A stretch of 44,342 nt of DNA from a virus. Position numbers and translations under genes: made by a program. The notes beneath the pieces were generated by a model. That model saw only the letters and a program-made list of their open reading frames with translations, had not been told where the DNA came from and did not search any database. How positions within the stretch are numbered: the first letter of the stretch is position 1; the number at the start of each line of letters is the position of its first letter. The stretch covers positions 1-44,342 of IMG/VR virus record IMGVR_UViG_3300047174_000041; one strand, 5' to 3'. Shown piece after piece: positions 35,255 through 42,307 of the stretch.

Positions 35255-35595
35255 TGGGTGGCCTTTGTGTCTGGGGTTGAAGGAAGCGGACGCCATAATT
35301 CAACATCGCTCGCGTCGCAGAAAAAATCGTCATAGTGTTCGTCGTCAAAACACAGATGCTCGCAATTCCACGGGCGCATCTTGATTTCGCCTTTATGGAC
35401 AATCAGGCAATCGACATACTCGTAGCTTTTCTTTCCAGGCTTAGTCGGCAGCGCGTCCTGGGGTTTTACCCATAGGGCATCCTCATATGCCTTGATGGCA
35501 TCCCCGATCAGGTCATCAATCGCGAGAAGATCAAATGGCTTTTCGCTATTGACAAAAACCTCGTAGGCAGCGCGCAAGGCGTCGGTCTCGCTCAT
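35251..35595 (-). CDS. DUF551-like early protein
   Basis: 114 residues from ATG 35595, with AGGA upstream. An N-terminal helical part (FDLLAIDDLIGDAIKAYEDA) precedes YEYVDCLIVHKGEIKMRPWN and DDFFCDASDVELWRPLPSTP, which is the C-terminal signature of DUF551-type phage proteins. It overlaps the serine recombinase gene by ATGA. Function unknown. Confidence 0.6.
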   Translation of the reverse strand: MSETDALRAAYEVFVNSEKPFDLLAIDDLIGDAIKAYEDALWVKPQDALPTKPGKKSYEYVDCLIVHKGEIKMRPWNCEHLCFDDEHYDDFFCDASDVELWRPLPSTPDTKATQ

Positions 35596-36221
35596 AAAAT
35601 TTCCTTTCTCTCTAAGTTTTCTAGGCTCTGTTTGTCTCGGTACTGGCCAAGCCACTGAAAAAATTTGGTGCGGCTGATGTATGGTTTAAGCTCCCGCGCT
35701 ATGTCGTTCATGGCCATGGGCGGCACTTCTGCCAGCAATTTCAGCGCAAGCGCCTCGACCTCCGGCGTCATCTTGTCGCGCCTCCCCGGCACTATCCCGC
35801 GCTCTCTGCTGGCTGCTTGGCCCGCCTTTGTGCGCTCTATAATCAAATCCCGCTCCATCTGCGCGAACGCGGCCAGCAAGGTAATCATCATCTTGCCGAT
35901 TGCGGTTCGGCCATCCAGGCTTTCCGTGAGGCTTACCAACTGCACGCCCCGGTCATTCAGCCGCTTGACCATCTCCAACACGTCAATGACGCTACGGCCC
36001 AGCCGATCGAGCTTCAAAAGCACAAGCGTATCGCCGCCCCGGAGCGCCTTCATTGCCGCTTTCAGGCCGGGCCGGGCGAAATTGCTGCCGCTCATCTGGT
36101 CCGTGTAAATTTGGTCGCGGTCCACGCCGTATCGGACTAGCGCGTCCATCTGTAAATCTAGCTTCTGGTCGCCCGTCGAAATCCTAGCGTAGCCGATCAG
36201 CGGGCGGTTATCTTCTCTCAC
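35592..36221 (-). CDS. Serine recombinase (resolvase/invertase type)
   Basis: 209 residues from GTG 36221. The segment IGYARISTGDQKLDLQMDAL holds the catalytic Ser15, followed by DQMSGSNFARPGL, LVLLKLDRLGRSVID and LTESLDGRTAIGKMMITLLA then FAQMERDLIIERTKAG, the complete resolvase/invertase catalytic core. A short C-terminal helix-turn-helix follows. It may invert a segment, resolve multimers or serve integration next to the tyrosine integrase. Candidate sites are the inverted 10-mers upstream. The start codon is only 8 bases past a TATAAAAC motif. Confidence 0.9.
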   Translation of the reverse strand: MREDNRPLIGYARISTGDQKLDLQMDALVRYGVDRDQIYTDQMSGSNFARPGLKAAMKALRGGDTLVLLKLDRLGRSVIDVLEMVKRLNDRGVQLVSLTESLDGRTAIGKMMITLLAAFAQMERDLIIERTKAGQAASRERGIVPGRRDKMTPEVEALALKLLAEVPPMAMNDIARELKPYISRTKFFQWLGQYRDKQSLENLERKEIL

Positions 36222-37432: not shown

Positions 37433-38386
37433 TTACCTCGTTTTTAACTTTTTGGCATTTTCCAAACGCACCACAGCCGATTGGGACAAAACCCGCTGGT
37501 CCACGCTTTTGGTGTAAACCTCAACTTGTTGCAGCGTCACATGGCCGGTGATGGCCTTAATCTCATGTGCGCTACATCCAGCCTCGGCCAATTGCGTGGC
37601 TGCGAGCTTGCGTAACCCATGAATGTTCAACCCGGAGGGCAACCCGATCCGCTGCAATTCGCGGGGCAGCGTGGTCGATAAAACACCAACCTTCATTGGT
37701 TCACCAAGCGCATTAGTAAGGATCGTCAACCCGTTGGCCTCACGCTTCCAAGCGTCCAACGCGGCTCGTAACTCGGCAGATGCTGGAATAACCATTTCAC
37801 GCTTGGTTTTCTGCTGTATCAGTTTCAAGCTTGAGCCGTCATAATCGGACCAGCGGAATTTGCAGAGATCACCACGGCGCTGCCCCGTATGCCGCGCCAG
37901 CAATACGGAGCGAGCGTATATTGTGGGCAGATTAGTCTCAGCGTGCAGGGCTTGCTCAAGCGTCCAAGCTTTCCACGCGCCGCGTGTCAAATCACCCTTA
38001 AGCCTGGTGGCGGGAGACGCCTCAATGTAATCCCGATCCACGGCCCAGCTAAAAAAGCTTGAGACCGCACGGCAAAAACCGTCCGCAGCGCCGTGGCCGT
38101 TTTCGCGGGCGAGATCGTCGCGGATTTCCAGAATGTGCCGGCGCTTTATATTGACAATCGGTACGGATTTATAAACATCGTATAAATAGGCAGAATATCT
38201 GACGTAAGCCGTTGCCGTGTTTGGCGATAATTTCGCCCAATTTGGGCTGCGCTGCCACGCGGCCATGACACCACTCACAATTTTGGATTCAGGCGAGGCG
38301 GCAATTTTTGGCGCGTAACGGTAGGTTTTTATAGTCCCGTCAGCCAGTTTACGCCGTTCTACCCTGTCTTTGCGCTTTTTTTGCAC
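37433..38386 (-). CDS. Tyrosine recombinase, phage integrase
   Basis: 317 residues from GTG 38386. An N-terminal SAM-like DNA-binding domain (WAKLSPNTATAYVRYSAYLY) precedes the catalytic domain: Arg170 (ARHTGQRRGDL), a Lys near 193 (QQKTKRE), His256-x-x-Arg259 (NIHGLRKLAATQLAEAG), His282 (TGHVTLQQVEVY) and Tyr291. It integrates and, with an excisionase, removes the prophage. Its start lies inside the excisionase-like gene, so the two are co-expressed. Confidence 0.92.
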   Translation of the reverse strand: MQKKRKDRVERRKLADGTIKTYRYAPKIAASPESKIVSGVMAAWQRSPNWAKLSPNTATAYVRYSAYLYDVYKSVPIVNIKRRHILEIRDDLARENGHGAADGFCRAVSSFFSWAVDRDYIEASPATRLKGDLTRGAWKAWTLEQALHAETNLPTIYARSVLLARHTGQRRGDLCKFRWSDYDGSSLKLIQQKTKREMVIPASAELRAALDAWKREANGLTILTNALGEPMKVGVLSTTLPRELQRIGLPSGLNIHGLRKLAATQLAEAGCSAHEIKAITGHVTLQQVEVYTKSVDQRVLSQSAVVRLENAKKLKTR

Positions 38387-38751: not shown

Positions 38752-39204
38752 TCAAAAAGGAATCGAATCGTCTAAATCATCAGCAGTAATTGCCGTTAAT
38801 TTACGAAAAGGTTGTGGCGCTTCATCCACAATGTAATCTGCAATTCCATTTTTATCAGGATACTGGCCAGTCTTATCCTTCTGAATATTCACCTTGCACC
38901 GGCCCGTTTTGCCTTCAAACTCCACCGCATCCAAAAATCCAGAATCATATTGCTTGCCCAAGCCGCACACATCCACACAATGGCGCAATTTATACGGAAC
39001 AGACTCAAGCAAATAATCAAAAATAGTCTGTTTGCGGCCTTCTTCGTTAAAGACATCAACCGTAAGCTTTACCATATCATTGCCAGATTTGCTGACGGTA
39101 TCTTCGGCGGCGCGGATTTCAAAATCGTATACGCCGGGTTTCCAAACAGGGAAATTGCTTTCCGCTTTGATCTGTTCGGCGCTCTTTGGTTCATTAATTC
39201 TCAT
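38752..39204 (-). CDS. SSB-like protein with acidic tip
   Basis: 150 residues. VWKPGVYDFEIRAAEDTVSK then SGNDMVKLTVDVF is a DUF669/OB-fold-like beta pattern, and the C-terminus AITADDLDDSIPF copies the acidic D-D-x-I-P-F tip by which SSB proteins recruit partners. It likely coats single-stranded DNA in phage recombination. It overlaps the Sak4-like gene by ATGA, forming a pair known from other phages. The region is visibly more AT-rich than the late genes. Confidence 0.75.
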   Translation of the reverse strand: MRINEPKSAEQIKAESNFPVWKPGVYDFEIRAAEDTVSKSGNDMVKLTVDVFNEEGRKQTIFDYLLESVPYKLRHCVDVCGLGKQYDSGFLDAVEFEGKTGRCKVNIQKDKTGQYPDKNGIADYIVDEAPQPFRKLTAITADDLDDSIPF

Positions 39205-40097
39205 GGCAAACGTCCTTTCAACATTTTGATAATAGCGTCCATTTTGTCAGCGTCGATTTCTTCCCAAGCCTCAATCTCGGCTTTTTTAAATGTTTTTTCC
39301 TGCCAATCTTCGGGCAGTTTAACCACATCCAAAAGACGCTTCATTTCTGAGATCTGATCTGGCGTGGCAAGAATTAAAGGTGCAGCTTTCCGCTCAATAA
39401 CATCTTTGCCGTAGCGTTCCGCAAACTCCGCGTATGACCAAGGAAACAAGGTTGCTTCTGGAAAGCTAGGCAACCGAGATTTACCTATTTTGGCTTTACG
39501 AGTGCCGCCCATTTTTACGATGTTTAGTAATAGGTGCAGATCGTAAGCGAGTTTTTCCGGCCCGTCATACGTTGCGCCGACCACCTCACGGTTACCCTTT
39601 TCATCTTTTCCCCACTCATCTTTTTCGTGGCAAATAAAAATCACGCTCATGTCGAGCTTGTTAACCCAGCGCAACAGATCGTTGAACTTGCGGATTGGAA
39701 TTTTCTTGGACGCGCTAAACACATCCTTGTCGCCCAAGCGCTGCTGCTCGTCTTGCAACGTGGTGTTCCACAGCTTAGAAGCGCTATCCAATACCACGGT
39801 GCGGAAATCATGCCTTTCGGTGGCAAGCGCAGTTACTTCCGCAATAACCGCGTCGATATCCAAACTACCTTGTTCTGGTCCGAAATAAACGCCGCCAGCG
39901 TTTTTCAGCTTAGCACGGTAATGGTCCAAATCAGCGCCGCCCTCGGTGTCGATATAATAGACGTTCGGAAAGTCCAGACTTGCCCAGGTTTTTCCGACGC
40001 CGGGCTTCCCAAATATCAACACTTTTGGTTTTTTGGGTTGTACGCTATCGGGTTCAACCGCTTTTAATTTTGATCGCGGTTTAATCATTCCGTCCAT
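39201..40097 (-). CDS. Sak4-type RecA-fold recombinase ATPase
   Basis: 298 residues; ATG 40097 with GGAG upstream. Walker A GKPGVGKT (30-37), Walker B in FRTVVLDSASKLW, then MSVIFICHEKDEW and GATYDGPEKLAYDLHLLL are typical of the AAA_24/Sak4 family, phage single-strand annealing helpers that need a cognate SSB. The SSB-like gene follows directly. The C-terminal 60 residues are helical and acidic. No annealase of the Beta/Erf type or exonuclease is in the window. Confidence 0.85.
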   Translation of the reverse strand: MDGMIKPRSKLKAVEPDSVQPKKPKVLIFGKPGVGKTWASLDFPNVYYIDTEGGADLDHYRAKLKNAGGVYFGPEQGSLDIDAVIAEVTALATERHDFRTVVLDSASKLWNTTLQDEQQRLGDKDVFSASKKIPIRKFNDLLRWVNKLDMSVIFICHEKDEWGKDEKGNREVVGATYDGPEKLAYDLHLLLNIVKMGGTRKAKIGKSRLPSFPEATLFPWSYAEFAERYGKDVIERKAAPLILATPDQISEMKRLLDVVKLPEDWQEKTFKKAEIEAWEEIDADKMDAIIKMLKGRLP

Positions 40098-40407: not shown

Positions 40408-40514
40408 CGCCTTTCCTTCCGGCGTTTTTCGAGTGCGGCCTCAAGCTCTGCGATCAGCAACGCCACCCGCGCTTCGGTTTCGGGGGACATGATAGGGTCG
40501 GGTCTACGGGTCAC
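40404..40514 (-). CDS. 36-residue charged ORF
   Basis: GTG 40514 overlaps the stop of the repeat-protein gene (GTGA) and its TGA overlaps the next ATG. The peptide is a single charged helix (ETEARVALLIAELEAALEKR). An ATG at 40490 gives 28 residues. Overlaps on both sides support translation. Confidence 0.5.
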   Translation of the reverse strand: MTRRPDPIMSPETEARVALLIAELEAALEKRRKERR

Positions 40515-41875
40515 GTCCGCACCTCCATCACCTTGCGATACTCCGCACCCGTCAGGCCGTAGGTCGAAGCGACCGCGTTAAGCGCAGTGAGGATTTGGGC
40601 GTCACCTAGCTCACCACCCTCATCGGGCAACGGTTCGCAACTGGGGGCCACAGGCAGGATGTAGCGACGGAACGATCCGTCAGGCTCAGGCGATCCGTTA
40701 ATGACCTTAAGAAACTCCGCCCGCCCATTGCGGCCGTACAGCGTGCCGTATTTTTCGTCATGGTCGATAATCGAAGCGCCACACTCATCGGCATAGCGAT
40801 CCCACCCGAAACGCTCAATCATCACGCGTTGAATTTCGGTGTTAGGCTCAGCTTCGATAGTCTTGATATCCAACCGCTCGGATTGCTCGATGATCCATCC
40901 ATCAAGGCGCACGCCGTGCACCGCGTAGAGCTTCCAGCCATCGCGGAATGCAATGGCAGGTCCCGTGTCGTTATGCAGACGGCCAATCTCATCAAACGAA
41001 ACAGACAGCGGGCGCTCGCATGCGATGATCAGGCCATCGCGCGGATACCACCACATGCAGGAGTGGCCGATCTCGTGCATGATGTCGAGCCTGTCGGCAG
41101 TGTCTGGCGGATACTTAACCCCGATATCCGCGCAAAATTTATAAAACGCGATCCAGTATAGATCCTGCTGACCCAACCAGTAGGTATCCTGGAATTCAAT
41201 TTTTGAGTTTTCGAGCTGCCCCCTGAGCTGCCCCCTGAGCTGGTGCGCGAGCTGGTCCGCGAGCTGGTGCGCGATCTGGCCCCAGAGCTGGTGCGCGAGC
41301 TGGTGCGCGATCTGGTCCGCGAGCTGGCCCCAGAGCTGCTGCGCGAGCTGGCCCCTGAGCTGGCCCCTGAGCTGGTGCGCGAGCTGGTGCGCGAGCTGGT
41401 GCGCGATCTGGCCCCAGAGCTGGTGCGCGAGCTGGTGCGCGAGCTGGTGCGCGATCTGGCCCCAGAGCTGGTGCGCGAGCTGGTGCGCGATCTGGTCCGC
41501 GAGCTGGCCCCAGAGCTGGTGCGCGAGCTGGCCCCTGAGCTGGCCCCTGAGCTGGTGCGCGAGCTGGCCCCTGAGCTGGCCCCTGAGCTGGTGCGCGAGC
41601 TGGTCCGCGAGCTTTAAAAATTTTGAACCGCCACCTTTGGCGGCGGGAAGGGCGAGGTGCTTGAGGGCAGCAAAAGCCAATTGCGCGGATAGCGGGCTAT
41701 CAACCCAGATGACTGGCACACGTTCCTTGCCGATCACCTTGTAGGCGCGCGCAAAAGCGCGTTCTGCGCGGGGGCGATCTGCGGGATCGCAATTTGTGCC
41801 GCGAGCCAAATACTCGGCGCGGAATTTCGGAAGATATGCCACTTGTTCGGCGGTCAGTTTTTCAATTTTTGCCAT
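40511..41875 (-). CDS. DUF6745-like protein with 33 tandem tetrapeptide repeats
   Basis: 454 residues. Residues 1-89 are a globular N-terminal part ([20 protein letters not shown]). Residues 90-221 are 33 units of x-x-Q-L/I ([18 protein letters not shown]). The rest is a globular C-terminal domain with [53 protein letters not shown] and [20 protein letters not shown]. The C-terminal part matches my memory of the DUF6745 family, whose members often carry similar short repeats, and whose function is unknown. The repeat would make a long polar helix or solenoid. It stands upstream of the Sak4 genes and next to a GEATGHHH protein. Confidence 0.75.
41213..41608 (-). repeat. 33 x 12-bp tandem repeat inside the DUF6745-like gene
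   Basis: Plus-strand units are variants of GAGCTGGTGCGC, GAGCTGGTCCGC, GAGCTGGCCCCT/A and GATCTGG... . A block at 41258-41388 recurs 180 bp downstream (41438-41568) with one visible difference (41339 C versus 41519 G), a recent 15-unit duplication. Both strands are open through the array. Confidence 0.95.
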
Positions 41876-41935: not shown

Positions 41936-42307
41936 TCAATCCGCGACGCGACGCGCCATGCCAGCGTGGTATGTGCGCTGGCGGATAACGTTGAATTTGC
42001 CGGTAGGATTGGTCTTCGGGTCGGGTGCAAAGGCAATGGTGGAGTGCTCTTGATGTTGAAGAGGCATCGCGTCCGCGACTTGGAACGCCACCGGCGTGTT
42101 CGATGCGTCGCGGAACAACGCGGCGCCGCGAGTGTGCGGCAGGCTGTGGTGGTGTCCCGTCGCTTCTCCGCGCGCGAGAATCAGTCGGCCGTTTTCGGGT
42201 TCGGACGTTTCAAGTTTAGAAATGTCCACATCCAGTCTAGGAATAATTCCCTGCGCAATGATGAGAATATCTCCCTGCGCTGCACCCTTGGTCACTACTT
42301 TCGTCAT
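41936..42307 (-). CDS. Protein with GEATGHHH motif
   Basis: 123 residues. It starts with a basic/Gly segment (VVTKGAAQGDILIIAQGIIP). The central RLILARGEATGHHHSLPHTR is a metal-like His cluster pattern I associate with small proteins encoded beside DUF6745 genes. The C-terminal half ends in TGKFNVIRQRTYHAGMARRV. Function unknown; linkage with the repeat gene suggests a two-gene module. Confidence 0.6.
   Translation of the reverse strand: MTKVVTKGAAQGDILIIAQGIIPRLDVDISKLETSEPENGRLILARGEATGHHHSLPHTRGAALFRDASNTPVAFQVADAMPLQHQEHSTIAFAPDPKTNPTGKFNVIRQRTYHAGMARRVAD

Follow-up and report, generated by a model that had tools for sequence, protein, structure and literature searches.

Tetrapeptide arrays of variable length are already known in a phage counter-defence protein. 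The Tweety gp54 protein has two conserved ends that flank AA[GWQ][SY] units of 12 bp (PMC2884959). Defence-escape mutants of Tweety gp54 with more or fewer units gained activity against the Phrann gp29/gp30 or the MichelleMyBell prophage defences, and Phrann gp29/gp30 is a putative alarmone synthetase defence (PMC9262239, PMC8549241). Within the Tweety group, which includes Che8 gp57 and PMC gp51, counter-defence has been tested for Tweety alone. An in-gene tandem repeat whose number varies among isolates of one phage is also described for VR2 of Bordetella phage BMP-1 bbp36 (as cited in PMC2884959); as described there, it is unlike the array reported here in being a 24-bp element in another gene. 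Here, we describe a second, widespread family of arrays with a conserved partner gene, which appears to be undescribed in the literature searched. That search returned no paper naming DUF6745, the domain found in the array protein, and nothing on what any protein with this domain does.

The window, meaning the whole stretch of DNA that was analysed, is a virus record of 44,342 bp. The closest matches of its large terminase are those of Brevundimonas, Desulfofustis and Roseobacter phages, and hence an alphaproteobacterial host is plausible. From the array gene onward, a run of minus-strand genes encodes a Sak4-like annealing protein, a DUF669/SSB-like protein and a tyrosine integrase. Because of this run, the array gene looks as if it sits in the early region of a temperate phage. 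An earlier note on this DNA had placed it in an early operon, which agrees with the recombinase and integrase genes adjacent to it. A serine resolvase/invertase gene (35592-36221) is found near the tyrosine integrase and on the same strand. The features of the locus are as follows.

40511..41875, minus strand: DUF6745-domain protein with tetrapeptide array, 454 aa (ORF list; PF20530 at 115.9 bits, E=2e-33)
41612..41875, minus strand: conserved N-domain, residues 1-88, kept in array-bearing relatives and in array-less chromosomal relatives
41216..41611, minus strand: array of 33 in-frame 12-bp units [L/I]xxQ, residues 89-220 (unit reading, TRF)
40511..41215, minus strand: C-terminal part including the DUF6745 domain, residues 221-454 (PF20530 and AlphaFold)
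41258..41388, minus strand: block that recurs 180 bp further at 41438-41568 (2 mismatches in 131; permutation p=1e-4)
41936..42307, minus strand: partner gene of the phrog_27831 family, 123 aa, predicted all-beta (PHROG match; AlphaFold pLDDT 93)
39201..40097, minus strand: AAA_24 / Sak4-like ssDNA annealing ATPase, a neighbour that gives early-region context and lies outside the cassette
37433-38386, same strand as the serine resolvase/invertase gene: tyrosine integrase (Pfam search)

The array gene product matches Pfam DUF6745 (PF20530) over residues 234-414, far above the curated cut-off of 27 bits, which bears out the family named in the earlier note. The Pfam model covers the C-domain only, and Pfam gives no functional assignment for PF20530. 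Other Pfam matches of the gene (Trigger_C, Minor_tail_Z, HI0933-like) fall in the array and were rejected as low-complexity matches. The earlier note had proposed a beta solenoid or a long helix for the array. AlphaFold predicts both flanks confidently (pLDDT mostly 84-97 across residues 1-70 of the N-domain and mostly >90 in the C-terminal part), whereas the array is called helix at a pLDDT of 35-57, which carries no usable information. Fold comparison of the product with the PDB gave nothing significant, sequence searches of the PDB gave no convincing relative, and the only viral models that stood out were those of other DUF6745 proteins.

The array of the window runs from 41216 to 41611 and comprises 33 units, each 12 bp long (396 bp in all), in unbroken register, as the earlier note had stated. 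TRF reports periods of 12 and 48 for the gene. The first codon of the unit is CTC or ATC, the second is GCG, AGG or TGG, the third is mostly CAC, GGC or GAC and the fourth is always CAG. The tetrapeptide reading of the earlier note is therefore kept, while its pattern x-x-Q-L/I is better given as [L/I]-x-x-Q, in which position 1 also varies between L and I. A block duplication is superimposed on the 12-bp period. The earlier note had seen one changed base between the two copies; there is one internal mismatch at 41339 (1 in 130 without the edge base) and a second at the last base of the block. The longest near-repeat in the order of the units spans 10 units with at most one mismatch, and since shuffling the same units 20,000 times gave p=1e-4, the duplication is real. 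Neighbouring units differ by 52 nonsynonymous and 0 synonymous codon changes, and third positions are nearly invariant, so the limited third-position variation noted before stands, and the claim that the array is recent or being homogenised is supported.

The array has some likeness to pentapeptide repeat proteins, which also carry a short repeat of fixed period in phage or bacterial proteins. A pentapeptide repeat reading (A(D/N)LXX) was rejected, as the repeat never departs from a period of four and matches no pentapeptide model in Pfam. A diversity-generating retroelement target was rejected on the pattern of variation alone: all four nucleotides (A, C, G, T) occur at base 4, and whole units reappear. 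A known anti-phage defence family was likewise set aside, as PADLOC gave only weak matches on or beside the array. Opposite the array, a plus-strand ORF of 124 aa (ELVRELVR...; 41243-41617) is open; it is probably a by-product of the 12-bp period and has no signs of a gene.

Similar arrays are prevalent among relatives of the window gene. In IMG/VR, 154 relatives were recovered with an alignment-based scan, and 80 of them were kept; the window, deposited phages and these viral relatives gave 86 ORFs, and 75 of the 86 carry arrays of at least 9 units (range 9-151). Most array-bearing homologues have the layout of N-domain, array and C-domain, as far as their contigs extend to show it. A protein-blind scan of DNA for xxQ[LV] units again recovered mostly DUF6745 genes of this layout. 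The deposited Mycobacterium prophage genome prophiGD102-1 contains a long array of about 45 units. Unit positions 1 and 4 are nearly uniform inside one protein and differ from protein to protein, such that the 75 arrays fall into the classes VxxS (24), VxxQ (21), LxxQ (15), VxxA (5), LxxN (4), LxxS (4) and LxxG (2). Over all arrays, the unit varies mainly at two bases, base 4 with 1.46 bits and base 8 with 0.95 bits. The codon of position 2 is usually NGG or GAG, so that most units have G, R, W or E there; in the window this residue is A, R or W, as against W, R, G or E in the arrays of relatives. Codon differences between neighbouring units of all arrays amount to 2840 nonsynonymous versus 184 synonymous. 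Such an excess is expected if units are copied whole and a variety of amino acids is kept, and is no proof of selection; it could alternatively come from a few old unit types spread through duplication.

The earlier note had expected array length to vary, and close relatives of the window gene, though not the window phage itself, differ in this way. L050 and L052 are 99.5% identical in the N-part and 99.8% in the C-part, and have 22 versus 27 units in a different order. Similarly, L031 and L039 are 99.1% and 95.5% identical in these parts and have 32 versus 30 units, again in a different order. The array thus varies strongly among close relatives while the reading frame is preserved. Equal repeat numbers in diverged homologues, named in the earlier note as evidence against its view, are the opposite of these near-identical flanks with different counts. 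Two pairs have identical arrays (L016/L017 and L053/L071); as identity over the entire locus is 100% and 99.99%, each pair represents records of one phage. A search for more near-identical pairs yielded no further ones. Several arrays have unusual arrangements. The largest, of about 151 units, is more diverged and lies in one ORF of 917 codons (L025:3925-6612). Viral contig 3300022562_001757 carries four DUF6745 genes (L049, L062, L065), and those read have short, differing arrays. Tandem short ORFs of about 10-25 xxQ[V/L] units lie in L148, L153, L160, L178, L189 and L208; these array-only ORFs have neither the N-domain nor the C-domain (one starts MKSVKKQV...), and a phrog_27831 partner is found near them in L148 and L189. 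In L171:8982-10011, an xxQL array is joined to another N-terminal region without the usual N-domain, and the contig ends inside the array.

Metagenomic contigs often break at these arrays. Among viral relatives selected by the C-motif, about 32 of 80 contigs begin inside the array gene, nearly all of them in the array. For the cut genes of all viral loci, 55 of 60 cuts on the 5' side and 25 of 29 on the 3' side fall in the array, counts that are biased since they take in loci from the DNA-only scan, which were chosen by their array. Because so many contigs break there, unit numbers, including the 33 of the window, are provisional; the exact copy number in the window is not certain if short reads were used, and metagenomic assemblies may give false copy numbers. 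Three contigs have the array of a DUF6745 gene at both ends (L152/L182, L157/L180 and L159/L181), which suggests that they are complete circular genomes opened by the assembler only at the array.

The array gene forms a linked two-gene cassette with its upstream neighbour. The comparison of neighbours proposed in the earlier note agreed with its early placement, but the note had overlooked this conserved partner (ORF 42307..41936), which ends 60 bp upstream of the array gene on the same strand. The window ORF matches phrog_27831 at 2.8e-7 and the partners of relatives match it at about 1e-11 to 1e-20; PHROG labels the family 'unknown function', and no source was found that connects phrog_27831 with DUF6745. 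Of 93 uncut viral DUF6745-type ORFs, 79 have a partner homologue no more than 400 bp away, on either side and on their own strand; by the same limits of distance and strand, so do 25 of 41 uncut ORFs of this type in public genomes. Conversely, when viral contigs were searched with the partner alone, a DUF6745-type ORF was adjacent in 76 of 80 loci. The array was absent in 18 of the 44 uncut cassettes found via the partner (~40%) and hence is not indispensable. The invariant residues of the partner include a QGD motif, E48, H54, H85 and H88, which suggests a metal site. The partner has no convincing relative in Pfam, NCBIfam, PADLOC or PDB, and its predicted fold gave nothing significant against PDB structures.

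The array is associated with the phage context, a point that emerged from comparing phages with chromosomes, as the earlier note had advised, and that the note itself had missed. Phage and actinobacterial members of DUF6745 have the N-domain in common with the window gene, and most chromosomal proteins (from public genomes, largely actinobacterial) consist of the N-domain and the C-domain without an array. Seven array-bearing genome loci have neighbours that match RecT, RecE, DnaB, integrase, replication-initiation and HNH families. Ten array-less genome loci have few phage-family matches nearby, with only one clear minor-tail protein. Array-bearing copies are thus found near recombinases, integrase and helicases, while array-less chromosomal copies are not. 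Actinomadura-type chromosomes carry the partner and DUF6745 pair with no array (L112, L114-L117, L120, L122, L124-L126). The array is also absent from some intact viral cassettes. Because both parts are found together in chromosomal proteins that have no array, the most fitting view is that the array was inserted into an older two-part protein, although loss may also have occurred.

The Tweety group resembles the DUF6745 arrays in architecture. Both have kept ends and in-frame tetrapeptide units of 12 bp (15-49 in the Tweety group), near-invariant silent positions, a copy number that varies among close relatives, and a place in the early region of a temperate phage. They share a variable W/G/R/E codon alphabet: the arrays of Tweety, Che8, Taj and Melissauren88 were read and use TGG, GGG, CGG and GAG codons, as the DUF6745 arrays do. 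Tweety, Taj and Melissauren88 have identical N-parts and 49, 31 and 19 units by the present count. That this alphabet is shared with an unrelated phage family, one for which counter-defence has been tested, is a further point absent from the earlier note. In contrast, the constant residues are AA in the Tweety group and Q-L in the DUF6745 arrays, and the Tweety group has no DUF6745 domain, no phrog_27831 partner, and end regions and neighbours that are not homologous. The window gene versus Tweety gp54 gave E=1.6 by BLASTP and a probability of 0.1-0.4% by hhalign of the N-part; hhalign of the end regions against the Tweety group gave <1%, and hmmsearch with models of the N-domain, C-domain and partner found no match in Tweety-group loci. 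Homology of Tweety gp54 to the N-domain, the C-domain or the partner was rejected on these searches, which leaves an analogy in architecture and nothing more. It supports the view that the DUF6745 protein may work like Tweety gp54 and does not support its membership in the Tweety family. The role in host interaction or defence suggested in the earlier note finds its best analogy here (PMC9262239, PMC8549241).

By this analogy, we tentatively read the cassette as an early, contingency-tuned counter-defence or host-interaction pair of a temperate phage, a reading to which we give a little under an even chance. The array gene and its upstream neighbour would form one early cassette, whose two products, the DUF6745 protein and its small all-beta partner, probably work together in a complex. 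Phage members have the array of four-residue units between the N-domain and the C-domain. Whole 12-bp units would be gained and lost via slippage or unequal recombination among near-identical units, and the reading frame would stay intact because they change as whole units. The length of the array and the order of unit types would then change while both flanking domains stay, and for this reason the array may set the spacing between the domains or a surface pattern. Such changes could allow a phage population to retune itself quickly against shifting host- or prophage-encoded defences, as with the repeat-number mutants of Tweety gp54. A broader claim is possible but rather doubtful: that this is an undescribed, widespread class of phage counter-defence or host-takeover cassettes, with a frame-locked array as a tuner between two domains, an all-beta partner, and the same W/G/R/E module in DUF6745 proteins, Tweety gp54 and the array-only genes.

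Other readings of the same locus were weighed. The pair could be a phage- or prophage-borne defence, superinfection-exclusion or toxin-antitoxin-like cassette directed at rival phages, with the array recognising a fast-changing phage trigger. Two small, adjacent, co-oriented genes found in either order, a position in the early or lysogeny region beside an integrase, and related pairs in bacterial chromosomes beyond a prophage context would all suit such a cassette. We nonetheless consider it unlikely: the PADLOC models offer no match, the usual phage neighbours are recombination and replication genes of an early lytic operon, and chromosomal pairs mostly lack the array just where a defence would be expected to need it. 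Those neighbours (ERF, RecT, Sak4, YqaJ/RecE and helicases), and the absence of the array from some intact viral copies, fit instead a replication or recombination accessory with the array as a spacer, the length of which would be of little consequence and would vary through neutral slippage. This is about equally improbable, as neutral slippage leaves the 2840 nonsynonymous versus 184 synonymous differences unexplained, the W/R/G/E alphabet is kept across proteins with different constant residues, and the same design recurs in the unrelated Tweety gp54.

It is also conceivable that the array acts as DNA, as a recombination hotspot or a protein-binding array, with its coding sense secondary; the 12-bp period, the near-invariant silent positions and the recombinase genes nearby are in line with this. 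It is very unlikely, however, since the unit DNA of relatives is wholly different (GTCNGGGMCAGC, CTCNGGAGCAGC, TTGGGTAGCAAT) while the protein pattern is kept, and the arrays remain in frame between the same two domains. Finally, the breaks in the contigs of relatives indicate that assemblers struggle with the array, yet that the array in the window record is itself an artefact of assembly is scarcely credible: like arrays are present in assemblies made independently, in the deposited genome of a Mycobacterium prophage and in most relatives, and the doubt reaches the exact number 33 only.

In the literature searched, Tweety gp54 and its close relatives are the only phage proteins with counter-defence tuned by repeat number. 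The same style of array is now found in a different protein family, carried by well over a hundred viral contigs; in nearly all cases the N-domain and the C-domain flank it and the phrog_27831 partner lies next to the gene. A practical warning follows for phages with array genes, as their assemblies break in the array gene and may mis-size it. For structural and genetic tests, the family supplies candidate proteins, a partner and arrays that differ naturally in length. It would thereby turn an oddity into a testable general strategy, that of contingency loci in phage anti-defence.
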